Origin: Candidatus Poseidonia sp.
GTDB taxonomy: Archaea > Thermoplasmatota > Poseidoniia > Poseidoniales > Poseidoniaceae
DNA length: 64,000 nt
Assembly (NCBI GenBank): GCA_030829545.1
Contig: JAURAI010000001.1
Location: 134,234 to 198,233 of the forward strand
Direction of reading: 5' to 3'
Numbering within the stretch: position 1 is the stretch's first letter; each line of letters begins with the position of its first letter. Position numbers and translations under genes: made by a program. This document shows positions 39,893 to 59,448 of the stretch, piece after piece. Below the pieces are notes generated by a model. It was given only the letters and a program-made list of their open reading frames with translations. It did no database searches and was not told where the DNA came from.

Positions 39893-39908
39893 CCCTCGAT
39901 GCCGAGGG
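39893..39908. repeat. GC-rich hairpin CCCTCG-ATGC-CGAGGG
   Basis: A 6-bp perfect stem with a 4-base loop inside the AT-rich region. An A-run on the plus strand follows about 12 bases later. It may be a terminator on the minus strand or part of a small RNA. Confidence 0.35.
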
Positions 39909-39958
39909 GATCGGAGCGTGAAAAAAAGCCCGATTTTGTAATTTTTCCAATTGGTTAT

Positions 39959-40014
39959 GAGATATCTTTGCGCTATATTCCAATTGAATATTAGATTAAT
40001 CAATTAGATATCTC
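39959..40014. promoter_or_regulatory. 9-bp inverted repeat GAGATATCT / AGATATCTC
   Basis: GAGATATCT at 39959-39967 is the exact reverse complement of 40006-40014, with 38 bases between the arms. The paired CAATTG element lies between them. The right arm ends 44 bases before the start of the gene at 40059, a plausible operator position. Confidence 0.4.
39981..40006 (+). repeat. Paired CAATTG element, copy 1
   Basis: CAATTG at 39981, a 14-base AT-rich spacer (AATATTAGATTAAT), then CAATTA at 40001. The box-to-box distance of 20 bp and AT-rich spacer match the other four copies; this is the most diverged one. Confidence 0.5.
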
Positions 40015-40058
40015 CACACACAATCATTTCATCAAGGGTTCACCTGTGCACTTACTGC

Positions 40059-40868
40059 ATGGAAGAAGGCGGTGTTCGATATCATCTTGTCAATCCTGGC
40101 CACTCTCTTTCGAGGGCGATCCTCGAACGAGGCATACCCGGAGGCTGCCGTTTTTCAGTAGAGGAGGAAGCGTATGGTGCCACCAGGGACTCCTTAGGCT
40201 CACTGCTGGAATTGTTTGCTGATGCGCTCACCCATCCAATGATGCCTCATGCAGACGACGACCGTTTGGTGATGATTTACTACAACACACCACCTCGGCC
40301 CGACAAAGACCATCAAAACATCGTCATTGACATTGACGAGAACATTGCTGATTATTACCCCGAGGACATCAATATCAGCATCACAGACATGCTGTCGATT
40401 CAGCCACTCGATGGGACCAATGCGTGCATGAATACATGGTTTGAACGGGCGAGGTCTGGGGGAGAGAGCCCCTCTGCTCAAATCGGGCATTATTGGTGCA
40501 GTGCACAGGATATCGCAGAAGCACTTCTTCGTGCCTTCCCCTTCATGACTCCGGGCCTTGAACCGTACACGGTTTCAGGACGTCGATACTGGCCGTCCGA
40601 AGATACGTGGACTGAGGTTAAACTCCTTGCGGACCGAACCCTTGCAGGACAGTCGGGCCAATTCGCACTCAAGCATCTTCTCGATGACGGTGGCCCTGCT
40701 GTAGAAGTCGAAGTTCTTGACGGGCGTGGAACACGACGTCAACGTCCCAATATCAGTCGTTTCCATGAATTATTGGAGGACAACACGGGCGAGGGGTGGA
40801 ATCCGCGGACTCCACTCAGACAATCCTTGATGCTCTTATTGGCCGAATGGATCGCTGAACAATCGTAA
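40059..40868 (+). CDS. Unknown soluble protein
   Basis: A 269-residue protein that I do not recognise. It is mixed alpha/beta with many acidic residues, no signal peptide, no membrane helix and no nucleotide-binding loop. Notable stretches are RLVMIYYNTPPRPDKDHQN followed by IVIDIDENIADYY, and WCSAQDIAEALLRAFPFMTPG. It is the only rightward gene between 31.7 and 48.6 kb and ends directly against the convergent deoxyhypusine synthase gene with no spare base. Its promoter must lie in the AT-rich region upstream. Confidence 0.7.
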   Translation: MEEGGVRYHLVNPGHSLSRAILERGIPGGCRFSVEEEAYGATRDSLGSLLELFADALTHPMMPHADDDRLVMIYYNTPPRPDKDHQNIVIDIDENIADYYPEDINISITDMLSIQPLDGTNACMNTWFERARSGGESPSAQIGHYWCSAQDIAEALLRAFPFMTPGLEPYTVSGRRYWPSEDTWTEVKLLADRTLAGQSGQFALKHLLDDGGPAVEVEVLDGRGTRRQRPNISRFHELLEDNTGEGWNPRTPLRQSLMLLLAEWIAEQS

Positions 40869-41885
40869 TCAGGCCTCAAAGGGATCACTGAAGATATCTG
40901 CACCTAAGAGCGGAAGAAGCAAACTTGCATCTCCCTCGACGCACACATGCGGAGCTTCAGGTCGCATTTTTCCCCAAGAAATGGCTTCCCTCAGACGAGC
41001 ACCCGATAAACTCCCGTCATGCTCTGGCGCTGTCGTGATGTAGACCGCACTGTCCAAACCACCCCGGTATTGATTCCACCAGATGACGTGATGTTTTGAG
41101 ATACCGCCTCCGACCATGAGAGCGTTTGAAGTTTCAACATCCCACGTGAGGTCACTCATGATTTGTTCGTCAGCGAGCGTATCAAGATGGAAATCTCGGT
41201 GCTTTTGGCGGAACATGAACAATTGAGCGCCGATTGAACCGTCGGTGATGCCTGGGATGCAAACAGGAATTCGGTGTTTAGCCGCCCAATAGATCAGGGT
41301 GTCAGGAGTACCGATGCGTTCTCCTAAAGCCCAAACAAGATGAACAGAACCGAAGCCCAACCAAACATCTGCACCTGTCTTGTCGCTAGCAGCCGTTCGT
41401 TCTTTGTAGATGTCTTCGAGAGCCGGCATCACCATGGCCTCAATGATTTCTCCATAGGATGCGTTCGGAACAATCACGTTTCCTAAGCGCATCAACGAAT
41501 GTTCTCCCAATTCGATGTCATCAAGTTCAAACGAGCCGTGGTAGTAGTGTTTGTAGGCTCTTGCTATGTCGTGGTCCAGTGTTCCACACGTCGTCGAGAC
41601 CACGTTGAACATCTTGCGCTTGATCGCCTCTACGAAGAAGCCACGCGTCCCTGTAGCGCACAGGCATGCGGGGAAAGAAAGCCAATTGGTCACCTTTGTA
41701 GGATCGCCGTCCACAGACTGAATCGTTGTATTCATGTCATTGAGAATGGTACGAGCTTCTGCGAACTTCGTTGCGGTGAAGCCGCCTGCTGAAGCCATTT
41801 GCTCAATGAGTTCACGGGGCGTCGTGGCTTTCGAAAAATCATAATCAACGACGGGTTGGTCAAAGTCCTCAGGTGTCATCGCCAT
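40869..41885 (-). CDS. dhs: Deoxyhypusine synthase
   Basis: A 338-residue NAD-dependent enzyme that transfers an aminobutyl group from spermidine to a lysine of aIF5A, the first step of hypusine formation. The catalytic lysine lies in GGGISKHHVIWWNQYRGG. The NAD-site region LTWDVETSNALMVGGG and the substrate-site region PGITDGSIGAQLF also match. It is a normal-length archaeal/eukaryotic type enzyme. A second ATG two codons later is an equally good start. It lies 51 bp after uvrB on the same strand. Confidence 0.95.
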   Translation of the reverse strand: MAMTPEDFDQPVVDYDFSKATTPRELIEQMASAGGFTATKFAEARTILNDMNTTIQSVDGDPTKVTNWLSFPACLCATGTRGFFVEAIKRKMFNVVSTTCGTLDHDIARAYKHYYHGSFELDDIELGEHSLMRLGNVIVPNASYGEIIEAMVMPALEDIYKERTAASDKTGADVWLGFGSVHLVWALGERIGTPDTLIYWAAKHRIPVCIPGITDGSIGAQLFMFRQKHRDFHLDTLADEQIMSDLTWDVETSNALMVGGGISKHHVIWWNQYRGGLDSAVYITTAPEHDGSLSGARLREAISWGKMRPEAPHVCVEGDASLLLPLLGADIFSDPFEA

Positions 41886-41936
41886 GCCCGTACCTCGCGC
41901 CTTTGCTTCATGAAGATGTTCACGGAAGTCAATGGG

Positions 41937-44366
41937 TCAATCCTGCCATCGTTCGAGTTCATGGATGCGATCTCGCAATCGTGCAGCCTGCTCGAAATCC
42001 AAGTTCTTGGCAGCCATTTCCATCTCGTCACGCAACTCGATAACCAGATTGTTGCGCTCGTCTTCGCTGAGCGTGGCTGGAAGGTCATGAGGTTCGTCAT
42101 ATGTCAATTGGAAATTTGAATCTTCAATTGGTTTTTCATTGTCGTGAGCCGCCGTCCAAGAGCCCGCCCCCAATTTGAGGCGTTGGGCCCAGTCTCCGTC
42201 TTTTCGGCCGCCTTTCTTCGCAATGAGGCGTTTTGAGCCGCCGCCTGATGTCGTGGTTCCAGAGATGAGGTCTTCCACGGAGTCTCCCATGACGGGAAGG
42301 GCTTTGACAATGGTACGCGGTGTAATTCCGAGCGCTTCGTTATTGGCTTGCTGCCGTTGACGTCGTTCAAGGGTTTGGCGAATGGCCGCCTCCATGGCAG
42401 GTGAGAAGCCGTCGGCGTACAGGAGGACCTTCCCGTTCTGATTTCGTGCCGCTCTTCCGATGGTCTGTAGCAAACTTCGTTCGTTTCGAAGAAATCCTTG
42501 CCGGTCTGCGTCAAAAATCGCTACGAGGCTTACTTCTGGGATATCGAGGCCCTCTCGAAGCAAATTGATGCCAACGATGACGTCGATGTGGCCCAAACGA
42601 AGAGCGTTGATGATCTCAGTTCGCTCGATGGTATCAATTTCCGAGTGCAAGTGATGCGCCTTGACTCCCATGCGATTGAGATAGGCAGCGACCTCTTCAG
42701 CGAATTTTATGGTCATCACCGTGACCAAACAACGCTCAGAGGCTTCCACCCGTGCGTTGATTTCAGTAAGGAGGTCGTTGATTTGTCCGGAAGTGGGGCG
42801 TACCTCGATTTCGGGGTCAAGCAATCCAGTAGGACGCAATTCCATCTTGGCGATGCCCTCAATCTTCTGCACCATTTCATACATTGATTCTGCATCAGGA
42901 TGCTTCTTTTTCAAATCGGCTTCTCCCGCACCGCCTCCTGAGGAGGCGTGGAGTAAACCCAACGGCAATTCCTGCCCGGTGGTTTCGCAAAGATGGCGCA
43001 ATTCCCTCTCACCCGGGGTAGCAGAAACGTAGACCATTTGGGGGACAAGAGATTGAAATTCCGGAATTTTGAGAGGCCGATTGTCTGCTGCAGTAGGCAA
43101 GCGGAATCCGTGTTCAATCAGACTGTCTTTACGAGATTTATCGCCAAAATACATTCCTCCTACTTGCGGTAAGCTGACGTGTGATTCATCCATAATGACA
43201 AGGAACTTTTTCGGGTCACCGTGGAATTGATTGGCGCAAGCGGAAAAGAAATCAAGAAGGCAATAAGGTCGTTGTCCCGGCTCTCTTCCGTCAAAATGCA
43301 AAGAGTAATTTTCAATCGATTGGCAATGACCAATCTCCCTCAGCATCTCTAGGTCGTACTCCGTTTTTTGTTCAAGGCGGTAACGTTCCAATTCCCTGCC
43401 TTGGCGGGCAAACCACTTAGCACGCTCGTTCAATTCCTTCTCAATTGATTCTAGTGCAGCCTCAAAGCGTTCTGGGCTGGTCATGAAAAATTCTTTCGGA
43501 TGAATCCAGGCCTCGTCGAGCGTGTCAAGTGCTTCCCAGGTCACTGGGTCGCAAATCTGTACGCTCTTGATTCCGTCAAAATCGAACACAATGCGCAACG
43601 GGTCATCTCTGCTGGGCATCCAAACATCAACAACCTCTCCCCGAACGCGACATTCTCCTCGTTTGAGGTCTGTGGTCGTTCTTCGGTATTGCAAGTCAAT
43701 GAGTTCGCGCAGAAGATCGCTGGTTTCGATGGATTGACCGACGTGGACGCGAAGGTGGTATTCAAGGAAGGTCTCGGGAGGGTTCAGGCCGTAAATGCAG
43801 GAAACGGAGGAAACTACGACGCAGTCGGGCCGACTGACCAATGAAGCGACAGCAGCAAAGCGCTCTTGCTCGATGCGTTCATTGATGCTCAATTCCTTGT
43901 CAATGTACAAGTCACGTTTTGCGAGGTAGGCCTCGGGCTGATAATAATCGTAATGGGAAACGAAATACTCAACGGCATTATCGGGGAAATAACCGACCAT
44001 CTCTTGGTGCAATTGCCTCGCAAGTGTCTTGTTGTGGCTCATGATCAGCGTTGGGATGTTGAGGTGCTCAATGATGTGCGCCATGGCGAACGTTTTGCCG
44101 CTCCCCGTGACACCGAGCATCACGCATCGTTCTTGGCCATTTTCCAATTGAGAAATTAATTTTTCAATTGCTTTTGGTTGGTCACCAGCAGGAGTGAACT
44201 CTGCGTGCAGATGAAAGCGCTTGATCGAGGGATTCAATTCCTCTAAAACAGCGCCTTCAAGCGCTTTTGAAAGGTCAAAGGGATCCCGCTGATTCAAATC
44301 AACATCGGCAGGGATGGCGTTTGCCCGTTGTTCAAATGAACCTTCATCATCCCACTCTTCAACCAT
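41937..44366 (-). CDS. uvrB: Excinuclease ABC subunit B
   Basis: The damage-verifying helicase of nucleotide excision repair, working with UvrA and UvrC. Walker A is GVTGSGKTFAMA, the beta-hairpin stretch YDYYQPEAYLAKRDLYIDKE follows, the helicase motifs include SHVSLPQVGGMYFGDKSRK and GINLLREGLDIPEVSL, and the C-terminal UVR motif (EMEMAAKNLDFEQAARLRDRI) that binds UvrC is intact. At 809 residues it is about 130 longer than the bacterial norm because of a roughly 40-residue N-terminal tail and an extended linker before the UVR motif. Two copies of a CAATTG-pair element lie inside the coding region. uvrA and uvrC are not in this window. Confidence 0.97.
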   Translation of the reverse strand: MVEEWDDEGSFEQRANAIPADVDLNQRDPFDLSKALEGAVLEELNPSIKRFHLHAEFTPAGDQPKAIEKLISQLENGQERCVMLGVTGSGKTFAMAHIIEHLNIPTLIMSHNKTLARQLHQEMVGYFPDNAVEYFVSHYDYYQPEAYLAKRDLYIDKELSINERIEQERFAAVASLVSRPDCVVVSSVSCIYGLNPPETFLEYHLRVHVGQSIETSDLLRELIDLQYRRTTTDLKRGECRVRGEVVDVWMPSRDDPLRIVFDFDGIKSVQICDPVTWEALDTLDEAWIHPKEFFMTSPERFEAALESIEKELNERAKWFARQGRELERYRLEQKTEYDLEMLREIGHCQSIENYSLHFDGREPGQRPYCLLDFFSACANQFHGDPKKFLVIMDESHVSLPQVGGMYFGDKSRKDSLIEHGFRLPTAADNRPLKIPEFQSLVPQMVYVSATPGERELRHLCETTGQELPLGLLHASSGGGAGEADLKKKHPDAESMYEMVQKIEGIAKMELRPTGLLDPEIEVRPTSGQINDLLTEINARVEASERCLVTVMTIKFAEEVAAYLNRMGVKAHHLHSEIDTIERTEIINALRLGHIDVIVGINLLREGLDIPEVSLVAIFDADRQGFLRNERSLLQTIGRAARNQNGKVLLYADGFSPAMEAAIRQTLERRQRQQANNEALGITPRTIVKALPVMGDSVEDLISGTTTSGGGSKRLIAKKGGRKDGDWAQRLKLGAGSWTAAHDNEKPIEDSNFQLTYDEPHDLPATLSEDERNNLVIELRDEMEMAAKNLDFEQAARLRDRIHELERWQD
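42105..42130 (-). repeat. Paired CAATTG element, copy 2 (inside uvrB)
   Basis: CAATTG boxes begin at 42105 and 42125. Read on the minus strand the spacer is AAGATTCAAATTTC. It falls in the variable linker of UvrB, encoding part of an IEDSNFQL segment, so the protein can tolerate it. Confidence 0.6.
44145..44170 (-). repeat. Paired CAATTG element, copy 3 (inside uvrB)
   Basis: CAATTG boxes begin at 44145 and 44165. Read on the minus strand the spacer is AAAAATTAATTTCT. It encodes part of AIEKLISQLENGQ, a stretch with ordinary residues for UvrB just ahead of Walker A. Confidence 0.6.
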
Positions 44367-44387
44367 AGACTCACCGTCATTGTGGCC

Positions 44388-45119
44388 TTAGGGGAGATAA
44401 AGTCCCCCGTTCACGTGGAGAATTGCCCCCGTGATATAGGATGAATCGGGACCTACGAGGAATGAAACCGTTGAGGCCATGTCTTCGGGTGAACCAACCC
44501 TTTGAAGCGGGACCTCATGCTCACGCTGGGTGCGTTTTTCGGGTGAATCTCCCGCCAATAAGTCGGTGTCAACATATCCTGGAGCGAGGATGTTGACGCG
44601 CTTGCCCTCTGGACCGAGTGATTGAGCAAGCGACCGAGCCCATGCAGAAAGGGCTGCCTTTGATGCAGCATAGTCTGCACCATGAGGTGAACCACGGATG
44701 CTCAATTGAGACCCTACAACAACCATTCGTGCTTCCTGAGTAAGATAGGGTTGAACGGCATTCCATACCGAGACCGCTCCCTCAAAATTAGTTTTCATCG
44801 TGGCGGTGAGGTCGTCCATGGTCATCTTGTGGCTTTGAACCCGGTTGTAGATGCCGTGGTTGAGAATCAACACATCGATGCCTCTGGCCATCCAAGGGTG
44901 GCGAGCGAGGAGGCCTACTTCGCCTTCGTCTGCACAGTCGACCTTGACGGCGAGGGCATCGTCTCCCCGTTCACGAATGGCATCGACGATCATTTCAGCT
45001 GGCTTCGAAGACAGATTGTAGGTCAAGAGAACGTCGTAGCCATCGGCGGCCAAACGGTCTGAAATCGCAGCACCAATACCGCGACCCCCACCAGTGACCA
45101 AGGCAACGGGACGGCTCAT
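44388..45119 (-). CDS. Short-chain dehydrogenase/reductase, FabG-like
   Basis: A 243-residue Rossmann-fold oxidoreductase. The cofactor loop TGGGRGIG, the NHG motif and the catalytic Ser with YAASKAA (Tyr-x3-Lys) are all present, and the closing TGAILHVNGGLY is typical of the FabG/3-oxoacyl reductase clan. Specificity cannot be told; candidates are a beta-hydroxyacyl or a sugar/isoprenoid alcohol dehydrogenase. It lies 21 bp ahead of uvrB on the same strand. No NADP-selecting basic pair is obvious after the second strand. Confidence 0.88.
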   Translation of the reverse strand: MSRPVALVTGGGRGIGAAISDRLAADGYDVLLTYNLSSKPAEMIVDAIRERGDDALAVKVDCADEGEVGLLARHPWMARGIDVLILNHGIYNRVQSHKMTMDDLTATMKTNFEGAVSVWNAVQPYLTQEARMVVVGSQLSIRGSPHGADYAASKAALSAWARSLAQSLGPEGKRVNILAPGYVDTDLLAGDSPEKRTQREHEVPLQRVGSPEDMASTVSFLVGPDSSYITGAILHVNGGLYLP

Positions 45120-45163
45120 GGCACAGGGAGTGGCTCATCGTTCATGAAACCATGTGAGCCTCT

Positions 45164-45550
45164 TCAGTTGTCTTCTGAAAGGAATTGAGCGAGTTGGGGT
45201 GGTTGCCAATTATCTGGCTTCAACACCTTGCCGTCTTCCCTACGGATGACCTTGCCGTCAACCAACTTGGCCATGTTGGAACGATGCACTTCGTTGAACG
45301 CATCATCGTAAATATCCTGCATGCCGTGGTTGAGGATGGTCCCTGCGAGGATGTAGCCAATATCTGCCAGCGCATCCAACACCTCAACCAAATCCCCCGC
45401 ACGTGCAGCTTCAGCATACTCTTGCACTTCTTCGGTGAGGAGTTTGATGCGAAGTTCAATCAATTCATCGGGGCCAAGGGCCGGCGAGTCAAGTTTGGGG
45501 ATCTCAAAGGCTTGATTAAATTCAAGCAGGGAAGCAACAATCGGGTTCAT
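45164..45550 (-). CDS. MazG-like nucleotide pyrophosphohydrolase
   Basis: A 128-residue all-alpha enzyme of the MazG/phosphoribosyl-ATP pyrophosphohydrolase superfamily, which cleaves a nucleoside triphosphate to the monophosphate and pyrophosphate. The metal-binding acidic pattern is clear: LLTEEVQEYAEA followed by EVLDALADIGYI, and the C-terminal EVHRSNMAKL with the KVIRREDGKVLKPDNWQPP tail marks the subgroup common in phages and plants. It may clean the nucleotide pool or act in a specific pathway. It belongs to the leftward gene run starting at UbiD. Confidence 0.8.
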   Translation of the reverse strand: MNPIVASLLEFNQAFEIPKLDSPALGPDELIELRIKLLTEEVQEYAEAARAGDLVEVLDALADIGYILAGTILNHGMQDIYDDAFNEVHRSNMAKLVDGKVIRREDGKVLKPDNWQPPQLAQFLSEDN

Positions 45551-45620
45551 GACATAGGTTTCTCAAGTCGGCTAAAGAACCTTCCACCGTGGAGAAAAGG
45601 GATGGCGGGGGAGATGCTCT

Positions 45621-46538: not shown

Positions 46539-48583
46539 CACTCTGGTCCCCCAAAGGAAAGGTGGGGGGGCCATTCGTATTTGTTGAGTTCGGGGTGAGC
46601 AGCGACTTTGGCAAGCGTTTCTTCATCGTGAAGCGTGATAGCAGGCCATCGGCGGACACCGTGCTCTTCGGAGGGAATGGGAGTGGTGGCGTCCCAGCAG
46701 AGGCGTTCCTTGGTTTCATCAAAAGTAAGCCCTCTACCAACATCAAAACGTGAAGGGAGTTGCCAAAGCAAGCGACGACGGGCTTTCGGTCCGTGCAAAT
46801 CAAGGTCATCATTGGTGATAAATAACCAACGAAGATTTTCTGCACCCTTCAAATGCCAAATTGAATTCCTCAATTGAATTATTCTTTCCCGTCGTTTCAG
46901 TTCTGCTTCATCATTTGAATCAGACGAGCCCGTGAGAGGTGCGGGCGTTCCTTTGACATGCGTCGTGACGACGAGCATGCTGCCCCGTAACATGCGGGCT
47001 TGGACAACGTTGTCCAATGCTTCAACGGCTGCAAGGTTGTCAAATTCAGGTGGTGCTTCAAGCCCTTGACGCCAAGCAGGAACCTCCATGCTAAAGGAAC
47101 CCTCGAGAGGGTCATGTTGGCTTCTTGGATCGGCAGCCGCCAGGGTAGTAGCGTCGATGAGTAACTTCGAGTGTACGTTCTCATACGGGCTTGCAGCCTC
47201 AAGTGAATCAGCGACCATCCCCTCTAAGACAACGATGTCAGTGGGGATGTGCACCTTGTCGTTGAGGGCATCAAGGAATTGTTCCAAATCTTTTGTATCA
47301 GCCGTTTCGTCGACCACTGCCATAATTTTGAGGAACATCATTTGGCCCGCCCCTAACAAGCCGATACCGGTCTTTCTTGCTTGGCGAGGATACCGCTGTT
47401 TTGACGCAGCGATGGCGAGGTTGTGAAAACCTGTTTCAAGAGGCAGGTGGACCGAGCGAACATCTCGATGCTGAAATTGCAATACGGGTGAAAATTGGCG
47501 CCCAATCGCCTCACCGAGATATCCATCTTCCATTGGAGGCAACCCCACAATGGTAGCAGGCAGCACAGCATCCTTTCTACACGTGATGGCCGTGACATGA
47601 AGAACAGGGTATTGGCCCGTGAGCGAGTAGAAACCAAAGTGGTCACCAAATGGCCCTTCGGTGCGAGTTTCCCCCGGCACGCTGTACCCTTCGATGACAA
47701 TGTCGGCCTCTGCAGGGACCATGAGGTCCTGTGTCAATGCTTTCGTGATGCGGAGTGATGAGCGACCGAGAATGCCTGCAAACTGATATTCGGACAGGTT
47801 ATCGGGAAGTGGAGAAATCGCAGAAAAGATGAGTTCAGGAGGCCCTCCAATGCAAACGGCAACGGGCATTTTTGCATTCGGCCCGAGAGCCGCAGCGTGG
47901 TCTGCAGCATGCTTGTGAATTTGCCAGTGCAGCCCCAGTTCCTTGGGACCGAACACCTGCGCCCGATACATGCCAAGGTTGTGCTCGCCAGAAGCAGGGT
48001 CTTTGGTGACAACCAAGGGGAGCGTGACAAAATGCCCACCGTCCATCGGCCAAGTCTTCGGGATTGGAAGTTTGGTCAAATCAATAGGCAAGCGTACACG
48101 CTGGCTCTTTCCCTTACGCTTTTTTCGCGGGGGCATCGCAAATGCGTCCCTCGCAAGCGGAAGAGCCACCCAAGGGCGTTTGACCATGGCCCCAATATCC
48201 GGTTTCATCATGGCTACCATTCGGTCACCCACCGAAGTTTCATGTTGGGCACCAAGAGCCCTCAGTGTTCGGTCGTGGGAACCGAAGAGATTCATCGCCA
48301 AGGGGATTGATGATATGGAGCCATCCGCCAAGCGTGGTTGCTCAAAAACAACGGCTGGACCGTCATTTTTCACCAGGAGGTCAGCGATCGCCCCGGCTTC
48401 GTAAACCACGTCGACTGGACGAGAAATCCGAATCAGTTCACCTCGGCTTTCGAGATGACGCATCCAACGGCTCAGAGTCTTCCATGCCACAGTCTCCCGT
48501 GAGGCTTCTTGCCTTTGAACCTCCGTATCCACCCACTCGACGATTTGCGAGAACCTTCCGTCGGAGAACACCGTTTTCTTCAT
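46538..48583 (-). CDS. UbiD-family prenylated-FMN decarboxylase
   Basis: A 681-residue enzyme of the UbiD family, which decarboxylates aromatic or unsaturated acids with prenylated FMN. The hallmark stretch with VPGETRTEGPFGDHFGFYS and the downstream MEDGYLGEAIGR segment are typical. It is longer than UbiD (about 490), with an N-terminal extension and a long C-terminal region of about 150 residues. Overlap with UbiA suggests quinone synthesis; in the futalosine route UbiD-like MqnL works with MqnP. The start at 48583 leaves 36 bp to the divergent reductase gene; a longer frame overlaps that gene and is unlikely. No ubiX-like flavin prenyltransferase is in the window. Confidence 0.88.
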   Translation of the reverse strand: MKKTVFSDGRFSQIVEWVDTEVQRQEASRETVAWKTLSRWMRHLESRGELIRISRPVDVVYEAGAIADLLVKNDGPAVVFEQPRLADGSISSIPLAMNLFGSHDRTLRALGAQHETSVGDRMVAMMKPDIGAMVKRPWVALPLARDAFAMPPRKKRKGKSQRVRLPIDLTKLPIPKTWPMDGGHFVTLPLVVTKDPASGEHNLGMYRAQVFGPKELGLHWQIHKHAADHAAALGPNAKMPVAVCIGGPPELIFSAISPLPDNLSEYQFAGILGRSSLRITKALTQDLMVPAEADIVIEGYSVPGETRTEGPFGDHFGFYSLTGQYPVLHVTAITCRKDAVLPATIVGLPPMEDGYLGEAIGRQFSPVLQFQHRDVRSVHLPLETGFHNLAIAASKQRYPRQARKTGIGLLGAGQMMFLKIMAVVDETADTKDLEQFLDALNDKVHIPTDIVVLEGMVADSLEAASPYENVHSKLLIDATTLAAADPRSQHDPLEGSFSMEVPAWRQGLEAPPEFDNLAAVEALDNVVQARMLRGSMLVVTTHVKGTPAPLTGSSDSNDEAELKRRERIIQLRNSIWHLKGAENLRWLFITNDDLDLHGPKARRRLLWQLPSRFDVGRGLTFDETKERLCWDATTPIPSEEHGVRRWPAITLHDEETLAKVAAHPELNKYEWPPHLSFGGPE

Positions 48584-48619
48584 GTGCTGCCCGTTGCCTC
48601 TGCGTCTTGGAGGAGAAGC

Positions 48620-49846
48620 ATGCGTACCTGTGATGTTGTGGTCATCGGAGCTGGCCCTGGCGGTGGTTCTGCCGCACTTCACAGCGCTCGCGTCGGCCTT
48701 TCAACGCTTATCTTGGAGGCAGACCCCGAGGTCGGCACTCCCGTACATTGCGGAGAATGTCTCTCCGAATTAGCGGTTCAAAATCTGGACTTGGAAATCC
48801 CCGATCACGTCAAAGCACTTGATGTCAAAGGTATCCGAGTCATTTTTCCAGACGGTACTGAAAAACTCCTTACCGAGGAAGGCTATGTCCTCGAGAAACA
48901 TCTGTTTGAGCGATGGCTGGCCGACGAGGCAGTGAGCAAGGGGGCGGAATTATTGCTCCACCATCGCGTGACTTCGATGGAGAGGGTTTACAATAGCGAA
49001 AATGAATTTACCAATTGGAAACTTGATGGTAGAGGCGATGAGTTTCCTGTCGAATGCCGCGCCGTGATCGATGCCTCGGGCGTAGCTGGAGCCGCTTCCA
49101 AACTCCTTGGCATGGGAGGCGAGGTTGAGGTCATTGCTGGATTCCAGTATGAGATGTTGGACGTACCCAATGACGGTTATCTCGACTTCTACTTGTGGCC
49201 AAAGTATTCGCCTCACGGCTATGTCTGGATGATTCCAAAAGAGGGAGGGCGAGCCAATGTTGGGTTGGTTACAACGGACAAAAAAGGGGCAATCAAGTAT
49301 CTTGAATCGTTCATTGAAGATACCTATCTGGCCGACAAGCCAACTGCCAATCCACCGTGGCGACCTGACGGCATCAAAATTCGTCCATTTGGTGGCACGA
49401 TTCCCATTTCTGGGCCGAGGACGGCTACCGCTGATGAAGGCATTATCCTGGTGGGGGATGCAGCCGGATTTACCTCGCCCCTGTTCGAAGGCGGAACACA
49501 CCTTGCGCTCTGGTCGGGAAGAGAGGCTGCTGAGACAGTGGCGAAGGCACTTGCAGAAAATGATCTCAGCAAGGCCCGCCTCATGACCTATGAGCGTGCT
49601 TGGAAAAAACAATTCCCACCCTACCACAAAATTCTGAAGGGGAAGACGGCCCTGTACAACCTCACCGATGACGAAATGTCGACCATGGCTCGGTGTCTAC
49701 CCAATGAATTGGGCAACATGAGCCCCTTGGATAAATTGGTGATCGGGTTACGGATTTTGATTCGTAAGCCAATTTTATTCACAAAGCGTGTCATTCCGGT
49801 GCTGTTATCATTCGGATATTCAAGAGCGAAATTCTTCGGATGGTAA
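48620..49846 (+). CDS. Geranylgeranyl reductase-family FAD-dependent oxidoreductase
   Basis: A 408-residue flavoprotein that reduces isoprenoid double bonds, in archaea those of membrane lipid chains or of the quinone side chain. The Rossmann dinucleotide fold GAGPGGGSAALHSARVG starts at residue 10, the CGECLS stretch follows and the second FAD motif GIILVGDAAGFTSPLFEGG is complete. GGAGG sits directly upstream of the ATG. It is divergent from the UbiD-UbiA pair over only 36 bp, consistent with a shared promoter and a role in the same quinone or lipid pathway. Confidence 0.9.
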   Translation: MRTCDVVVIGAGPGGGSAALHSARVGLSTLILEADPEVGTPVHCGECLSELAVQNLDLEIPDHVKALDVKGIRVIFPDGTEKLLTEEGYVLEKHLFERWLADEAVSKGAELLLHHRVTSMERVYNSENEFTNWKLDGRGDEFPVECRAVIDASGVAGAASKLLGMGGEVEVIAGFQYEMLDVPNDGYLDFYLWPKYSPHGYVWMIPKEGGRANVGLVTTDKKGAIKYLESFIEDTYLADKPTANPPWRPDGIKIRPFGGTIPISGPRTATADEGIILVGDAAGFTSPLFEGGTHLALWSGREAAETVAKALAENDLSKARLMTYERAWKKQFPPYHKILKGKTALYNLTDDEMSTMARCLPNELGNMSPLDKLVIGLRILIRKPILFTKRVIPVLLSFGYSRAKFFGW

Positions 49847-49879
49847 GGCCCTTTGAGTCCAGCGGCTTAAGCAAAGGCC

Positions 49880-52438: not shown

Positions 52439-52457
52439 TCCTATCCAATGCAATTAT

Positions 52458-52490
52458 CAAGGGGAGGCTGGTCGCCGATTTATCCCCTTG
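52458..52490 (+). promoter_or_regulatory. 8-bp inverted repeat in the FKBP gene leader
   Basis: CAAGGGGA at 52458-52465 is the reverse complement of 52483-52490, with 17 bases between. The right arm ends one base into the GGAGG ribosome site (52490-52494), so a stem here could affect how well the FKBP message is read. No terminator-like T-run follows. Confidence 0.35.
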
Positions 52491-52501
52491 GAGGTTAGAA
52501 C

Positions 52502-53341: not shown

Positions 53342-53402
53342 ACTTGATTCATCGGTAGAACGATAGAATGAGGTCCATTTCAATCAGATGAGAGGCAGTT
53401 CT

Positions 53403-54782
53403 ATGGAAACCGAAGAGCAGGGACCGAAGGCCTTTGCTCCTGCATTACCTGATGACAAGTTCACACCGGTTGAAAAAATCATCATTTGGACTGCTCTGAT
53501 CGGTGTTTTGTTCGTCCTTGCGGGCTTTGTTCTCGCGTACGAAACGGTATGGACTGCGACCTTGAAGCCAATTATTTGGGACCCCGTTGTAAAAGATGCA
53601 GGGGCTGCTGGCGATGCAGGTTATACGCCGCAAAACACGGCGATTTACACACTCAGCATGCTCGGTTGCGTTGTTCTCCTGCAAGCCCTGTTTAGAAAGT
53701 GGAAATTGCCCAGTGATGAACGTATGACCTGGGCACTCATCGCATGGGTGTGCCTTGCGCCTGTACTTCGCGTCCTCGAAGATGCCGATTTCTTCTCTTC
53801 TTCGACCGATGTTTTGTTCATTTCACCACTCATCCACCTCCACCTCGCCGCTTGGCTGATTGGAATTGCACTGCTTTCACACGCCCTTGTTGGGCGTTGG
53901 GACGGACGTGAAGGTGATAGCATTGAAGAGCGACGCCGAACGCTTCTGTTTGGCGGTCTTTTCGCTGCTCTGTACGCCCATTGGTATTGGCTGTACCAAC
54001 CAGCCTACGAAATCCATACTGAATCCTCATTTGGCATCGCTTTGGTATCTCTTGTTCTGGCTGCAGCGCTTTTGTGGATGTCATTGGTTGCAACACGGGC
54101 ATGGCCTGCGCTCACACGAGGCATGCTTGCTTTTGCCTGTGCGACCCTCGTTCTTGGGGTAGGCCACTGGTTGCAATTCATCGCGACCCCTTGGGCTCAA
54201 GAAAGCGCACGAGTATCAACCGAAATCATCCTTTGGCCTGCTCTGGTCGTACTTGGCCTGCCGGGATTGATTTGCTGGATCATGTACGTTGCGGGACGTG
54301 AAGACGCACAACAGTTGAAACTCACCGGCTACAAGGCTGGCGTTTTGCCTGAAGGCATCACGCTCAAACAATGGGAGGATGAACCAGACCGCTGGGCTTC
54401 CCATCCTGTTGAATTCCTTTCCAACAAAGCCCTGCTCGCCCACCCGATGGTGCTCGGCATGGTCTTTGGGCAACTGGCTGATGGTTTTGCCACCATGCTC
54501 GGCATCGACATGTTTGGTTACGGGGAAAAACACCCCGTAAGCAACGCTGTGATTGAGTACGGTGGAGACATCAACGACATGCTTGGCATCGACTGGGGTG
54601 AAGGTGCGTGGCTCTTTGCTCTGGTAAAAGCCATCCTCGTTGGTCTCATCGTCTGGCTTTTCGTGCAAATGCGAGTTGAACATCGCCAACAACACTTCAG
54701 GCTGCTCATCGTTTTGGCCGTCCTCATCGTCGGACTTGCGCCGGGCCTGAGAGATATCGGGCGTTTGATGCTCGGTGTTTGA
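53403..54782 (+). CDS. DUF63-family integral membrane protein
   Basis: A 459-residue archaeal membrane protein with about ten hydrophobic segments. The family is recognisable by the PLIHLH and [28 protein letters not shown] stretches, which contain conserved polar residues within the membrane. Function is not established for DUF63. The ATG at 53403 has GAGG upstream; an in-frame ATG 15 bases earlier is the alternative. It runs ahead of the acyl-CoA carboxylase genes with a 77-bp gap and may or may not be co-transcribed. Confidence 0.85.
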
Positions 54783-54859
54783 CGGAGGCTTTGACCTCCG
54801 ATGATGGTCTTGAATGCCATTATATGCAGCCATCACTTGGGATAGGACGAGGGCTGAAG

Positions 54860-56470
54860 ATGGACCGATTACCAACAAGGGTTAATCGTGCTGACCCTGA
54901 GTTTGCGCAGCGGAAAGCCCACAACTTATCCCTGATTGAGGAATTGAGGGCGCGTTTGGCCAAAGCCTCTGAGGGCGGGGGTGGAAAATACGTTGACCGA
55001 CATCGGTCCCGTGGAAAACACCTGCCGCGAGAGCGTATCGAGCGAATCATCGACCCAGGTACTGCTTTTCTCGAATTGTCCCCACTCGCTGCACATGAGC
55101 TCTATGACGGCCGCGCACACTCTGCTGGAATCGTCACTGGGCTGGGCATGGTTCACGGTCGCGAATGCCTGTTCGTAGCCAACGATGCAACCGTGAAGGG
55201 CGGTTCGTACTACCCGATGACGGTCAAGAAACACATTCGCGCCCAAACCGTAGCCCACGAGAATCACCTTCCCTGCATCTATCTCGTCGACTCTGGTGGT
55301 GCTTTTTTGCCAATGCAAGACGAAGTCTTTCCAGACATTGGCCATTTTGGTCGTATCTTCCGCAATCAAGCACGTATGTCGGGTGACGGCATTCCACAGG
55401 TCGCCGCTGTCCTTGGGTCGTGTACCGCTGGAGGGGCCTACGTACCCGCCATGTCGGATGAATCCATCATTGTCAAGGGCAATGGAACCATCTTCCTTGC
55501 AGGACCACCATTGGTCAAGGCAGCAACGGGTGAAGAAGTTACAGCAGAAGCGTTGGGTGGTGCTGACGTGCATACTGCACAGTCGGGCGTCGCCGATCAT
55601 TTTGCAGAGGACGAAGACGAAGCGTTGAGGATGGTTCGTAACGTTGTTGAAAACCTCGGTCCAAATGAAAAAGCACCAGCTGCCATGGCTGAAGTTGAAG
55701 CCCCTGCTCACGATGTTGAAGATTTACTCGGCCTCATTCCCAGTGACAACCGAACTCCTGTTGAAGTTCGTGAATTGATTGCAAGAATTGTGGACGGGTC
55801 AAGATTCCATGAATTCAAATCCCGCTATGGAACGACACTGATCTGTGGATTCGCTCACATTCACGGACACAAGGTCGGGATTGTTGCCAACAACGGTATT
55901 TTGTTTTCAGAGTCCTCGCTCAAAGGGGCACACTTTGTCGAATTGTGCGGTCAGCGTGGTATTCCTCTCGTCTTCTTGCAGAATATTACTGGCTTTATGG
56001 TCGGCAAGGATTACGAAGCGGGCGGCATTGCAAAAGACGGAGCGAAATTAGTCACCGCTGTGTCCTGTGTCAACGTTCCTAAATTCACCGTCATCGTTGG
56101 TGGTTCACACGGTGCGGGCAACTACGGCATGTGCGGTCGTGCCTACGACCCACGTTTCCTTTTCATGTGGCCTAACAGCCGTATTTCTGTGATGGGTGGC
56201 CCACAAGCAGCAGATGTCTTGACAACTGTCAAACAAGACCAACGAGGTCGCGAAGGCCTTGAGCCTTTGGAAGGCGAAGAAATCGAAGCCTTCCGCAAGC
56301 CCATTCTTGACAAGTACGAAACAGAAGGAAGCCCCTATTATTCCACGGCTCGCCTTTGGGACGACGGAATCATTGACCCGCGAGACACACGAGACGTGCT
56401 CGGTTTGTGCCTTGCGGCTGCAAGAAATGCCCCCTTGCCCGATGACCGATACGGCATCTTTAGAATGTAA
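54860..56470 (+). CDS. mccB: Methylcrotonyl-CoA carboxylase, carboxyltransferase (beta) subunit
   Basis: A 536-residue carboxyltransferase that moves CO2 from carboxybiotin to 3-methylcrotonyl-CoA in leucine breakdown. It matches the MCC branch rather than propionyl-CoA carboxylase: the stretches [38 protein letters not shown] and [20 protein letters not shown] are characteristic. The ATG at 54860 gives the family-typical length; ATG 54824 and a TTG at 54779 overlapping DUF63 are less likely. It heads a compact four-gene set with a hydratase, biotin carboxylase and biotin carrier. Confidence 0.92.
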
Positions 56471-56475
56471 TTTTT

Positions 56476-56501
56476 CAATACAAGATTTAATTTTTCAATT
56501 G
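56476..56501 (+). repeat. Paired CAATTG element, copy 4 (leader of hydratase gene)
   Basis: The first box is CAATAC at 56476 and the second CAATTG at 56496, with spacer AAGATTTAATTTTT. AATTTTTCAAT is directly repeated at 56469 and 56489, again a 20-bp step. It lies within the 43-bp leader between mccB and the hydratase gene, just before that gene's GGAG site. Confidence 0.55.
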
Positions 56502-56513
56502 GAGTTTTTAGAA

Positions 56514-57380
56514 ATGGCAAACATGGACAACCCCCCTGCAACAAGCCTCATCCGTTTGGACATCGACGGGCCACGAGCACGCATTACCCTTGCTCGGTCA
56601 GAGAAATTCAATGCCCTCAACGTAGCCATGATTCAGGAATTGATTGACGTGCTTGAATGGACGGCTCTACGCAGTGCTGGGCGCCAAGACGCTCTCGAAG
56701 ATGAAAACGGCCGTCCCTACCTCCGTACCCTGGTGTTAAGCGGCGAAGGCCGCCATTTTTGCGCTGGTGCAGACATCAACATGATGCGAGATGCTGGAGC
56801 CAATACTCCCGAAGAGAATAGGGCTGATTCAAAACGCCTTGACCGCCTCTTCAACGGCCTGTGGAGTCACCCCTGCTTCACCGTGGCAGCCGCTCAGGGA
56901 GTGGCTCTTGGCGGAGGTGCTGGACTCATCTCTTGCTGTGATTATGTCGTTGGCACCACCAACCTCCGCATCGCCCTTTCTGAAGGTAAGCTTGGCATCC
57001 TCCCTGCCGTTATCGGCCCCTATGTCTACCGACGACTTGGTTCTGCGACCTTCCGACGGTTGGCCATGCAAGCCAGCAGAATTCAATCCGATGAAGCACT
57101 TCGTATCGGATTCATCGAGCGAATTGTACCAGAGGTGAACGATTTTGATGCTGCGATTGATGAAATCATCACTGAAGTCCTCACGACGGGCCCTTCAGCG
57201 GTGACCCTGGCCAAGGAATTGACGCTCGGCTTTGATCGCTGGACCGATTCAGATGAAGCGTTGCGAGATTGGACACTGGATTTCACCAGTCGCATGCGTG
57301 GCTCAAATGAAGGTCAAGAAGGCCTCTCGTCCTTCCTTGAAAAGCGACCACCAAATTGGAAACAAGACGAAGATAACTGA
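56514..57380 (+). CDS. Enoyl-CoA hydratase/isomerase, probable methylglutaconyl-CoA hydratase
   Basis: A 288-residue crotonase-fold enzyme. The oxyanion-hole stretches FCAGADINMM and GVALGGGAGLISCCDYVV, followed by SEGKLGILPAVIGPYV, are diagnostic. Its position between mccB and the biotin carboxylase points to hydration of 3-methylglutaconyl-CoA, the product of MCC, to HMG-CoA; that specificity is inferred from context. An in-frame start far upstream overlaps mccB and is rejected because the ATG at 56514 has a GGAG and fits family length. Confidence 0.9.
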   Translation: MANMDNPPATSLIRLDIDGPRARITLARSEKFNALNVAMIQELIDVLEWTALRSAGRQDALEDENGRPYLRTLVLSGEGRHFCAGADINMMRDAGANTPEENRADSKRLDRLFNGLWSHPCFTVAAAQGVALGGGAGLISCCDYVVGTTNLRIALSEGKLGILPAVIGPYVYRRLGSATFRRLAMQASRIQSDEALRIGFIERIVPEVNDFDAAIDEIITEVLTTGPSAVTLAKELTLGFDRWTDSDEALRDWTLDFTSRMRGSNEGQEGLSSFLEKRPPNWKQDEDN

Positions 57381-57389
57381 GGGGCGACG

Positions 57390-58898
57390 ATGGTCAGTAA
57401 GGTTTTGGTGGCTAACCGAGGTGAAATCGCCTGTCGGATTCTGCGTGCGTGTTCAGAAGCCGGAATTGGAAGCGTTGCCATTTGTGCCCCGAACGACCAG
57501 GGGAGCCTCTTCACTGAACTTGCTGACGAAGTCGTCCTGCTCGAAGGAACCACCATTGGTGAAACCTACCTTGACCAAGAGCAAATTATTGCTGCAGCCC
57601 ACTCGACCGGTGCTGATGCGATTCACCCTGGTTTTGGATTCCTATCCGAGCGTGCAGAATTTGCAAGGCACGTGAGCGCCAACGGACTGATTTGGATTGG
57701 ACCCTCTCCCGAAGCCATTGACCAGATGGGCGACAAAATGACTGCACGCCAAACGATGCGCGCTGCGGGAGTTCCTGTCATTCCGGGTGAAGAAGTCGAA
57801 GAGGTTGACGAAGCAAAAACTCTCGAAGCCTTGCGAGGCGCCGCCCAACGGGTTGGCTACCCTCTGTTGCTGAAAGCCTCAAGTGGTGGCGGTGGCAAAG
57901 GAATGCGTGCAGTGCATGACCCAGCTGACTTTGACCAAGCTGCATCAGCCGCTCAGCGAGAAGCAATTGCTGCTTTTGGCGACGGACGAATTTACATTGA
58001 ACGTTTGCTCACGGGCTCCAAGCACATCGAGATACAGGTGCTTGCCGACCGCCACGGACGAACCATCCATCTGGGGGAGCGTGAATGCAGTGTGCAGCGT
58101 CGCCACCAGAAGGTGTTCGAAGAAGCCCCCGGCCCCACCATGACGCCTGAATTACGTGAAGCAATGGGACAAGCAGCCGTGGCTGCTGCTCAGGCTGTTG
58201 ATTACGAAGGAGCCGGGACGGTTGAATTCCTGCTGGCCGCATCGGGTGAGTTTTTCTTCCTCGAGATGAACACACGAATCCAAGTCGAGCATCCTGTGAC
58301 AGAATTGGTTACTGGCGTGGACATCGTACGAGAACAATTGCGCATCGCCAACGGTGAGCCAATGTCGTGCGGTGACTTGATGATCCGTGGCCACGCCATC
58401 GAAGTTCGTCTTTATGCAGAAGATGCAGCCAATAATTTCCTTCCCGCCATCGGGCCGTTGGCTGTATTCCGACCCCCAGAGGGGCCGGGTATTCGCCTCG
58501 ATACCGGGGTGCGAGAAGGTGATGACATCACGCCAAATTACGACCCCATGTTGGCTAAATTGATTGTTTGGGCACCTTCTCGGGTTGAAGCATTGCAAAA
58601 AATGCGCCGTGCTCTTGATGAATTTGTTATTTTGGGCACCACCACCAACGTTGAATTCCTTCGTGACCTTTGTGACGCCCAGCCTGTCATCGACGGTTCA
58701 ACAACCACCACAACCATTGACACTTTGTGGCCAAATGGGTGGAACCCCCCACAGGATTTGACCCTTGAGGACGCTTCCTTGCTCGTTGCTGCGGGTGCTG
58801 AGACACTCGGCCTCCACCGCCAACGAGAAAGGTCTGCAAAGGAAGGAACTGGTGGACCTGAAAGTCCCTTTGCAACCCTTAACCGGAGGTATCCATGA
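57390..58898 (+). CDS. mccA: Acyl-CoA carboxylase, biotin carboxylase subunit
   Basis: A 502-residue ATP-grasp enzyme that carboxylates biotin using bicarbonate. The N-terminal VLVANRGEIACRI, the ATP loop LLKASSGGGGKGMR, the GERECSVQRRHQK stretch and the catalytic FLEMNTRIQVEHPVTE are all intact. In bacterial MCC the alpha chain is about 650 residues and includes the biotin carrier; here the chain ends after the carboxylase domain and the carrier is a separate gene. Stop and next start overlap as ATGA. It may also serve other acyl-CoA carboxylases. Confidence 0.94.
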   Translation: MVSKVLVANRGEIACRILRACSEAGIGSVAICAPNDQGSLFTELADEVVLLEGTTIGETYLDQEQIIAAAHSTGADAIHPGFGFLSERAEFARHVSANGLIWIGPSPEAIDQMGDKMTARQTMRAAGVPVIPGEEVEEVDEAKTLEALRGAAQRVGYPLLLKASSGGGGKGMRAVHDPADFDQAASAAQREAIAAFGDGRIYIERLLTGSKHIEIQVLADRHGRTIHLGERECSVQRRHQKVFEEAPGPTMTPELREAMGQAAVAAAQAVDYEGAGTVEFLLAASGEFFFLEMNTRIQVEHPVTELVTGVDIVREQLRIANGEPMSCGDLMIRGHAIEVRLYAEDAANNFLPAIGPLAVFRPPEGPGIRLDTGVREGDDITPNYDPMLAKLIVWAPSRVEALQKMRRALDEFVILGTTTNVEFLRDLCDAQPVIDGSTTTTTIDTLWPNGWNPPQDLTLEDASLLVAAGAETLGLHRQRERSAKEGTGGPESPFATLNRRYP

Positions 58899-59365
58899 TG
58901 CAGTATACCTTTGCTTCCTCTGATGGCCCGATTGAAGTGACCCTTGCACGTCACGGTGAGGCCCTGCAACTCTCTGGATATTCACTCGCACAACACGACC
59001 GAGGTCGATTGTTGGTGACGCTTGCGAACGGAACAACATGCATCGCACACGCTACAAAAGTTGGTGATGTATGGTGGGTTCACCTCAACGGACGCACCTA
59101 CCGCTGGGAACGAATTGAACCTGGTTCATCCTCAGCGCATGATGAAGGCGGGTTGGTTGCCCCAATGCCGGGTAAAGTTCTCGAAGTCCTCGTGCGAGAA
59201 GGGCAATCTGTCGAAGCGGGTACGTCTCTCATGGTTCTTGAAGCCATGAAGATGGAACACCGGATCGTTGCATCAACCGACGGCATGGTAGCACACATCC
59301 ATTTTCAAGCCGGTGAACAGGTCGCACAAGGAGCCGTATTGCTGGACCTTGAAGAAACAGAATGA
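58895..59365 (+). CDS. Biotin carboxyl carrier protein
   Basis: A 156-residue protein whose last 75 residues form a biotinyl domain: VAPMPGKVLEVLVREGQSVE, then EAMKMEHRIVAS in which the Lys carries biotin. The first 80 residues form the beta-rich linker (BT-like) domain normally found in MCC and propionyl-CoA carboxylase alpha chains, so this is the detached C-terminal part of such a chain. GGAGGT stands eight bases before the start. It overlaps mccA by 4 bp. Confidence 0.93.
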   Translation: MMQYTFASSDGPIEVTLARHGEALQLSGYSLAQHDRGRLLVTLANGTTCIAHATKVGDVWWVHLNGRTYRWERIEPGSSSAHDEGGLVAPMPGKVLEVLVREGQSVEAGTSLMVLEAMKMEHRIVASTDGMVAHIHFQAGEQVAQGAVLLDLEETE

Positions 59366-59422
59366 CCTGCTCGTCACTGTACAACCCAACATCCATCTCC
59401 ACTGAAGCACGTATTCAAGTTT

Positions 59423-59448
59423 CAATTGGGAAATCAAATTTTCAATTG
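59423..59448 (+). repeat. Paired CAATTG element, copy 5 (intergenic)
   Basis: CAATTG boxes at 59423 and 59443 with spacer GGAAATCAAATTTT. This is a clean, two-box copy lying outside coding sequence, 58 bases past the biotin carrier gene and about 120 bases before the exporter gene. Confidence 0.6.

Follow-up and report, generated by a model that had tools for sequence, protein, structure and literature searches.

How chromosomes are segregated in archaea beyond the Sulfolobales is a largely open question, and a short repeated element in the genome of a Marine Group II (Poseidoniales) archaeon may bear on it. The stretch of DNA analysed here (hereafter the window, 64,000 nucleotides of the 202-kb contig C3 of Candidatus Poseidonia sp.) contains pairs of CAATTG boxes with a fixed spacing and a similar AT-rich spacer. 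An earlier note described five such pairs, and their positions, boxes and spacers were found to be exactly as given there. What is this element, how far does it extend through the genome and its relatives, and which protein might read it?

The palindrome and its copies in the source genome

The 26-bp element proposed in the earlier note is real, but its scope was drawn too small. More specifically, the repeat is a full palindrome, CAATTG-RRNAWTYRAWTNYY-CAATTG, with its centre included (the weight-matrix motif reads CAATTGRRNAWTYRAWTNYYCAATTG); it has a second form of 27 bp, in which the step from the start of one box to the start of the next is 21 instead of 20, and there are further copies, namely a 27-bp copy at 46850 of the window and others at C3:16029 and 116822.

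About half of the copies in the window are intergenic (positions are window coordinates, without strand). The site at 39981–40006, CAATTG-N14-CAATTA, lies between divergent genes for a PRC-barrel-like protein and a 269-aa protein, in an intergenic region holding five CAATTG boxes, and shares this array with a looser copy of step 23 (39765–39793, score 31.5). Two sites with perfect boxes fall inside uvrB, one at 42105–42130 in its 3′ part, 220 bp ahead of the deoxyhypusine synthase ORF, and the other at 44145–44170, approximately 200 bp past the ORF start. The 27-bp copy, CAAATG-N15-CAATTG (46850–46876), is located within a UbiD-like gene; its score of 19.4 barely exceeds the best of 1 Mb of background (18.8), and the support for it therefore comes from its conserved place, both boxes being perfect in several relatives. 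A doubtful, weak step-21 copy within a geranylgeranyl-reductase-like gene (48991–49017) scores 13.3, inside the background range, and similar copies are present in genomes G005 and G020. The remaining two sites are intergenic: CAATAC-N14-CAATTG at 56476–56501, between carboxyltransferase and enoyl-CoA hydratase genes, and a site with perfect boxes at 59423–59448, between the genes for a biotin carrier and an MMPL/HAE3-like transporter.

The assembly of this organism (G000) comprises 1,627,636 bases in 28 contigs and is 74% complete. It holds four exact copies, all on C3, or about nine on that contig when variants are included. Fifteen pairs of CAATTG with gaps of 0–30 occur in the whole assembly; four have a step of 20, all of them on C3 and with an AT-rich palindromic spacer, and any other step is found at most twice. 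The binomial probability of at least four of 15 pairs at one named step is approximately 0.001, but three of the four were already known from the earlier note, and the independent test of the spacing was therefore taken to relatives. Every exact or one-mismatch copy with an AT-rich spacer (as judged by eye) is on C3. The weight matrix, whose training set partly consisted of the C3 copies that it then scored, detects seven copies there with scores of 21–42, and 2 Mb of Markov sequence gave zero matches scoring 15 or more.

Conservation among relatives

Among pairs with steps of 16–24 in 22 same-genus genomes (75 listed of 90), 39 have a step of 20 and 15 a step of 21, with 21 for the seven remaining steps together, so that the fixed spacing of 20 is enriched in the relatives as it is in the source genome. 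The likeness of the spacers also holds beyond this genome. Of 47 copies, 46 were fetched from 11 same-genus genomes, and all 46 stand at six orthologous places (four of them placed by an alignment that stops 112–141 bp short), with the spacer conserved and with flanks that have diverged to 64–82% identity. Neither of the two outcomes named in the earlier note as refuting the element was seen.

Selection at the DNA level was examined at the two sites inside uvrB. In a set of 30 genes picked by protein, synonymous codon identity at the site windows is 0.837 and 0.774, against a background mean of 0.425 (SD 0.082) and a best non-site window of 0.626; the two rank as the most codon-conserved among 801 windows, with the 42105 site at the top. 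At 14 loci of motif-poor relatives, different codons specify a similar UvrB peptide, and a peptide similar to that of the 44145 region is encoded without a site. The palindrome is thus a real DNA element under selection. A further class of loci has the site within the 4′-phosphopantetheinyl transferase gene (20 of 25 loci), where its distance to the 3′ side of the convergent neighbour is 166–212 bp in the 17 of these 20 intragenic loci in which the neighbour aligns.

Distribution on the chromosome

The closed genome G039 (2,064,136 bp) has seven copies inside 117 kb, of which three are weak or respaced; they stand 7–124 kb from parA and 26–143 kb from the best cdc6 gene, and an eighth, respaced copy at 1947296 belongs to the same arc. 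The sites are thus clustered in approximately 6% of the chromosome; a 400-kb sample from its other parts yielded a top half-site score of 14.0, compared with 21–42 for the copies. Two copies of G000 have distances to parA of 50 and 151 kb. In G026 and G031, the contig with parA has copies on either side of this gene, from about −27 to +10 kb, and members of a second family, probably Thalassarchaeaceae, carry additional copies on contigs other than that of parA (C26, C63 and C138 of G026; C3, C212 and C255 of G030; C7 of G031; C8, C13 and C24 of G038). Regional confinement was therefore judged in G000 and G039, and in both the copies are confined to one chromosomal region. The copies share their contig with the best cdc6 gene, and cdc6 is also found in motif-poor genomes. 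GC skew located no origin in 20 sampled stretches of G039 or in its site region, so that nearness to an origin is suggested by cdc6 alone.

The moxR-parA-rhh-orf3 cassette

The copies surround a cassette of four minus-strand genes (31695–34340), approximately 7 kb from copies and absent from the earlier note. A MoxR-type AAA ATPase (33333–34340) stands upstream of a ParA-family ATPase (32303–33280), which matches AAA_31 (E 4e-53) and has a deviant Walker A motif, KGGCAKT, read from the sequence. An 87-bp gap separates parA from the gene of an 86-aa ribbon-helix-helix (RHH)-like protein (31955–32215), the proposed site binder, and the latter overlaps by 4 bp with orf3 (31695–31958), a conserved neighbour of 87 aa.

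The whole cassette is present in eight of eight motif-bearing genomes from two families. In seven of seven motif-poor relatives, moxR-parA is kept, and neither rhh nor orf3 was found beside parA in the approximately 1.2 kb that follow it; motif absence was judged at uvrB only in G029, G035 and G110, and as no consensus copy with perfect boxes in the remaining genomes. The palindrome therefore goes with the presence of the rhh-like gene beside parA, and parA lies near the sites. Since parA is retained in the motif-poor relatives, ParA must also work without these sites.

The assignment of the small protein to the ribbon-helix-helix class is putative, and comes from the pattern of its sequence together with a single Pfam match below threshold. 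Specifically, the strand MTSVSVS is invariant in seven of seven family members, and in a permissive scan one of the seven weakly matches VAPB_antitox (E 0.009), as one of seven orf3 proteins weakly matches PIN_3 (E 0.022). Pfam, NCBIfam and PHROGs gave weak matches only, mostly with unrelated names, and searches of IMG/VR and of phage and plasmid collections found no homologue. A single-sequence structure model (mean pLDDT 69.5, low at the N-terminus) has two helices and zero strands and no fold match among PDB structures at E up to 0.001; the model of orf3 is poor (48.4).

Comparison with known systems

The closest parallel may be SegAB of the Sulfolobales, where SegB recognises a 13-bp motif, TCTAGA-S-TCTAGA, with 39 ChIP peaks and 83.7% of the sites intragenic (PMC12284271, PMC11381335). 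The two systems share a ParA-type ATPase gene followed by a small gene (for an RHH DNA-binding protein there, for a putative RHH-like one here) and palindromic sites that cluster near the two genes. They differ in that the site here is a 26-bp CAATTG-N14-CAATTG in about four to nine copies, in a mix of genic and intergenic places instead of mostly intragenic ones, and in that segA and segB overlap, whereas 87 bp separate the genes here. A ParA with a deviant Walker A and sites near its gene are likewise found here (with some second-family copies elsewhere), and orf3 is an extra neighbour. The ParA itself is closer to Soj-type chains of the PDB (E 1e-51 and 3e-42) than to 7dut (E 3e-16), which we take to be Sulfolobus SegA. 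Sequence homology of the RHH-like protein to SegB was not seen: PDB searches with a single-sequence query and a 7-member profile matched 1 and 13 sequences at E up to 10, none of them named as SegB or RHH, although a more distant kinship is possible.

Bacterial ParABS offers a similar layout, with few palindromic sites, both genic and intergenic, that keep to a short arc close to parA and perhaps to the origin, but there is no general ParB here, and site and adaptor are unrelated. ParB_N at E up to 0.001 was found in 29 of 145 Poseidoniales genomes, above the cut-off in six of 145, and not in G000; on the last two counts ParB was rejected as the binder. Plasmid partition of type Ib pairs its ParA with an RHH adaptor (ParG or omega, for example), much like the ParA and small RHH-like protein of the cassette, which in contrast is chromosomal, occurs in two families and has sites spread over at least 100 kb instead of an iteron array. 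In searches of open-licence literature on partition and replication origins in Poseidoniales/Marine Group II, on ParA and segregation in Thermoplasmatota and on phage use of host ParB at parS, no listed title names such a system. We know of no cultivated Poseidoniales strain. CdrS, an RHH regulator of cell division described as occurring in every major archaeal group (PMC7439475), offers a possible parallel as a small RHH protein of archaea with a cell-cycle role, but it adjoins ftsZ2, and the gene here adjoins parA.

A candidate centromere and its alternatives

The earlier note gave equal weight to a chromosome-organising or segregation site, another genome-wide mark and a promoter element. 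Of these, segregation is now the best supported, because the sites are few, clustered, both genic and intergenic and kept at the DNA level, because they surround the ParA and RHH-like cassette, and because in genomes that lack the motif no such small gene was found next to parA; in G000 and G039, the idea of a genome-wide mark lacks support, and a promoter or operator ranks lower. With a probability of roughly 0.7, the palindrome is a centromere-like (parS-like) site of the Poseidoniales main chromosome in a partition system of SegAB/ParABS type. Dimers of the RHH-like protein would bind the palindromic CAATTG boxes, which would lie two helical turns apart; the dimers could plausibly bind in pairs on the same face of the helix, and a third dimer could occupy the central AWTYRAWT box. 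Several loaded sites might then assemble into a partition complex, which nucleoid-bound ParA-ATP would move, or space, along with the duplicated region, with orf3 as a possible accessory subunit.

That these sites are instead operators for a regulator of transcription, possibly the RHH-like protein itself, acting on neighbouring lipid or acyl-CoA genes is unlikely, even if such a lipid or biotin regulon ranks second. The neighbours do include acyl-CoA carboxylase subunits, enoyl-CoA hydratase, UbiA, the geranylgeranyl-reductase-like protein and phosphopantetheinyl transferase; several second-family copies are approximately 50–150 bp upstream of an aligned gene start (an alignment offset, not a located start codon), some copies precede a second carboxyltransferase gene, and the viral copies described below likewise stand ahead of a gene. 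However, other copies sit deep within uvrB, the UbiD gene and, in most loci of its class, the phosphopantetheinyl transferase gene, the set of uvrB, deoxyhypusine synthase, IF2 and P-type ATPase is no metabolic one, and the copies of G000 and G039 share one region near parA. It is still less probable that the palindrome serves the architecture or replication of the chromosome through another protein (an initiator or SMC loader), with parA nearby by chance or through a shared regional function: the position of cdc6 in G039 would fit, but cdc6 persists in motif-poor genomes, and rhh and orf3 beside parA track the motif (eight of eight genomes with it, none of seven without).

The weak VAPB_antitox and PIN_3 matches could be taken to mean that RHH and orf3 form a VapBC-like toxin–antitoxin pair whose link to the palindrome is incidental. 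Antitoxins mostly bind their own promoter, unlike a distant and conserved set of sites, orf3 is short for a PIN domain, and the pair adjoins parA throughout the motif-bearing genomes of both families, which makes this very improbable. As the earlier note remarked, single CAATTG boxes are common (48 within the window), and Gln-Leu codon pairs could fall 20 bp apart by chance or codon usage; this explanation, besides being at odds with the enrichment of step and spacer and with the intergenic copies, is refuted by the synonymous conservation and by the other codons of motif-poor relatives.

Under the centromere reading, a defined site, a small protein and an ATPase in very abundant ocean archaea would make segregation testable in vitro and culture-free, and the apparent loss of small protein and sites in sister genera provides a ready-made control.

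Copies in viral contigs

Six related, magrovirus-like viral contigs have the site in the same conserved position, ahead of a gene, and the hosts of these viruses are probably Marine Group II archaea. A search of the phage collection found no homologue of their primase-like protein. A broader picture can be proposed tentatively, with rather more doubt than belief: Poseidoniales chromosomes would be partitioned by ParA-RHH-orf3 with their own 26-bp centromere, lost in several second-family genera, and one group of magrovirus-like viruses would carry the host centromere once, within the replication module, which might allow the host machine to bind, tether or partition the viral genome. If the virus group does carry a host site, this would be an unusual virus–host link and a marker for host assignment. 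A match in Cytophagaceae (L141) may be due to chance or to a binning error.

The element in its own genome and genus

The earlier note had claimed five pairs of CAATTG boxes (starting at window 39981, 42105, 44145, 56476 and 59423), and rechecking in the sequence bore out their coordinates, boxes and spacers. The assembly to which the window belongs (1,627,636 bases in 28 contigs, 74% complete) holds 15 CAATTG pairs with a gap of 0-30; four of these have a distance between box starts (step) of 20, all on the window's 202,116-base contig C3 and every one with an AT-rich palindromic spacer, and any other step is represented by at most two pairs. When one mismatch is allowed, extra copies with such a spacer (judged by eye) are found at C3 116822 and 174214, again on C3 only. 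That the fixed 20-bp spacing is unusual, as had been proposed, also holds in same-genus relatives, where the 75 pairs listed, of 90 with steps of 16-24, comprise 39 at step 20, 15 at step 21 and 21 at the remaining seven steps.

The consensus, CAATTG-RRNAWTYRAWTNYY-CAATTG, reads as a palindrome across its centre, and T12 and A15 do not vary in any copy. It derives from a selected set of 33 distinct copies (4 from the own assembly, 29 from same-genus relatives); excluded were duplicates and, among the 39 copies at step 20, five with a G+C-rich spacer. A weight matrix gave seven matches on C3, scoring 21-42, and none of 15 or more in 2 Mb of Markov sequence. A half-site scan, in which the centre is free to vary (background of about one match of at least 11 per 202 kb, top score 18.8 in 1 Mb), gave a looser copy at window 39765 (31.5), a 27-bp copy with CAAATG in place of CAATTG at 46850 (19.4) and a doubtful copy at 48991 (13.3). 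Because this background reaches 18.8, the latter two depend for support on their positions in relatives, in which both boxes of the 27-bp form are perfect. The divergent intergenic region at window 39641-40058, before a gene judged PRC-barrel-like by eye (Pfam gave no match), contains five CAATTG boxes, and several of seven relatives keep two boxes 33 bp apart at its counterpart, in direct repeats like TGTCGCATAA.

Conservation of places and codons

A pattern search with one mismatch found 47 copies across 11 same-genus genomes, of which 46 were fetched (the omitted one, in genome G012, contains N letters). All 46 lie at six C3 places, near 16.0, 116.8, 176.3, 178.4, 190.7 and 193.6 kb, with flanks 64-82% identical; four were placed through an alignment ending 112-141 bp away. 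Next to the 116.8-kb site, at C3:117073-120597 (before the window), are a small protein that by eye resembles Roadblock/LC7, with no Pfam match, and a 1060-aa coiled-coil-like protein, the latter also present in G038, a genome of a second Poseidoniales family (probably Thalassarchaeaceae).

At least one copy is present in all 30 uvrB loci retrieved by protein similarity within the family, a subset of the 57 genomes that gave a match when 58 were searched; the eight loci of genus g11 have the 3′ copy only, and one locus cut by a contig end has the 5′ copy only. The elements are conserved where host codons could vary, a possibility raised by the earlier note: synonymous codon identity over the 30 loci is 0.837 and 0.774 in the two site windows, with a mean of 0.425 (SD 0.082) over 801 windows and a maximum of 0.626 outside the site windows. 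In the 14 loci read from motif-less genera, a similar UvrB peptide is encoded by different codons. Since the site windows are the most codon-conserved and motif-less genera spell a similar peptide differently, the constraint at the uvrB sites acts on DNA, and not on protein alone.

Chromosomal and taxonomic distribution

Seven matches were found by the one-mismatch pattern scan of the closed genome G039 (2,064,136 bp), four of which fit the consensus (1856548, with one mismatch, 1884460, 1967451 and 1969515); those at 289, 459 and 564 kb, whose spacers depart from the consensus, were judged to be chance. Matrix and half-site scans of 189 kb gave a further 27-bp copy at 1960532, respaced copies at 1950581 and 1947296, a weak one at 1973203, and two more matches near background (1973476 and 1921112, score about 17). 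The copies span 117 kb, or 5.7% of the chromosome, and 400 kb sampled elsewhere held only three half-site matches, with scores of 11-14. Taking just the four pattern copies, the P value of the arc is about 0.0007, or 0.009 with the uvrB pair counted once. The best cdc6 is at 1829565 and parA at 1980135. Between the own genome and G039 gene blocks are rearranged, yet they stay within the region and retain their sites. This confinement is stated for these two genomes; several second-family copies sit on different contigs from parA.

An exact-pattern scan of 84,980 species genomes yielded at least 115 stretches with the element. Among the matches listed, 80 stretches could be considered by name: 36 are titled Poseidoniales, Poseidoniaceae, Poseidonia, Thalassarchaeaceae, Thalassarchaeum or Marine Group II, 43 carry no more specific name than Euryarchaeota or euryarchaeote, and the remaining one is a Cytophagaceae MAG, whose single exact palindrome (L141:6570) may reflect chance or misbinning. 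The 125 copies in the 115 stretches are at the uvrB start (33), the uvrB end/deoxyhypusine synthase (22), phosphopantetheinyl transferase (25), a TtuA-like gene (8), other known places (21) or unclassified (16). Genera g5, g7 and g9 of the second family have the element in the same neighbourhoods and a few more. Elsewhere in that family, no consensus copy with perfect boxes was among the matches listed in G037, G033, G024 and G028, no CAATTG pair with steps of 16-24 was found in G023, G025, G027, G032 and G034, and the one-mismatch scan found no such consensus copy in G121.

The parA cassette

The window encodes, on the minus strand, a ParA-family AAA_31 protein (32303-33280); a MoxR ATPase comes before it, and an 86-aa and an 87-aa protein come after it. 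ParA was searched in 16 genomes, eight bearing the motif and eight poor in it (for G029, G035 and G110, motif absence was judged at uvrB only). In all eight motif-bearing genomes, G039 included, the AAA_31 gene is on a copy-carrying contig, 3-11 kb from the nearest copy, and tblastn found all four cassette genes together (G000, G040, G041, G039, G031, G030, G026 and G038). Seven of the eight motif-poor genomes (G121, G110, G027, G024, G025, G029 and G023) have moxR and parA (44-50% identity), and in the roughly 1.2 kb following parA tblastn found neither of the two small genes; the eighth, G035, gave no such parA in the ParA search. In the seven, parA is followed by a coiled-coil-like gene on the opposite strand, directly so in several, or by another gene. 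Near the window's own cassette, an 844-aa coiled-coil-like protein without a Pfam match is encoded at 26678-29212.

The 86-aa protein is read as a ribbon-helix-helix (RHH) protein. Its family has an invariant MTSVSVS stretch, a single-sequence structure model gives two helices, and the sole library support is a sub-threshold VAPB_antitox match in one of seven members.

A putative centromere-like site or an operator

We read the element as a centromere-like site, putatively bound by the RHH-like protein and moved by ParA. One symmetric RHH dimer would suit a 6-bp palindrome, two boxes 20 bp apart would face the same side of the helix, and a third dimer could occupy the conserved centre; the loaded sites would then be the cargo of ParA. 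The copies in uvrB, UbiD and the phosphopantetheinyl transferase gene sit inside genes, away from their starts, which makes a role as a transcription operator less likely. Of the 25 loci of the transferase class, 20 have the copy within the gene (166-212 bp from the 3′ side of the convergent neighbour in the 17 where that neighbour aligns), and the other five have it at the end of the upstream giant gene or just beyond it; what is conserved is the neighbourhood, not the exact position. On C3, a giant ORF of 2934 aa (16635-25439) adjoins the transferase gene.

For the centromere-like reading, the nearest studied system is SegAB as described in PMC12284271, in which SegA is ParA-like and SegB an RHH protein with 39 ChIP peaks, a cluster near segAB and oriC1, and 83.7% of its sites intragenic; the main text of that paper has no mention of poseidon, thermoplasm or marine group. 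The Poseidoniales system may work like SegAB. However, its motif is built on CAATTG, whereas that of SegB is TCTAGA-S-TCTAGA, and PDB sequence matches, judged by name, revealed no SegB homology of the 86-aa protein; therefore it is not filed as SegAB.

Copies in viruses

The exact pattern occurs in six stretches among 2.9 million IMG/VR contigs, which are mutually related and share one position for the copy, following a gene that matches the primase large subunit (E 1e-5, which passes the Pfam cut-off). Searching with a protein profile gave 48 viral loci, of which two are truncated before reaching that position and were excluded. The copy is absent from all 28 loci of a more distant group and present in 8 of the 18 of a closer one (six exact, two variants; two of the eight are near-identical contigs); in nine of the ten copy-less close loci, an ORF seems, by eye, to begin at once at this position. 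No RHH homologue was found within the fetched viral stretches. Among the neighbouring genes are those for DNA polymerase B and for an ERCC4 nuclease, and such neighbours are reported for magroviruses in PMC10160649; from this likeness, the viruses would be expected to infect Poseidoniales.
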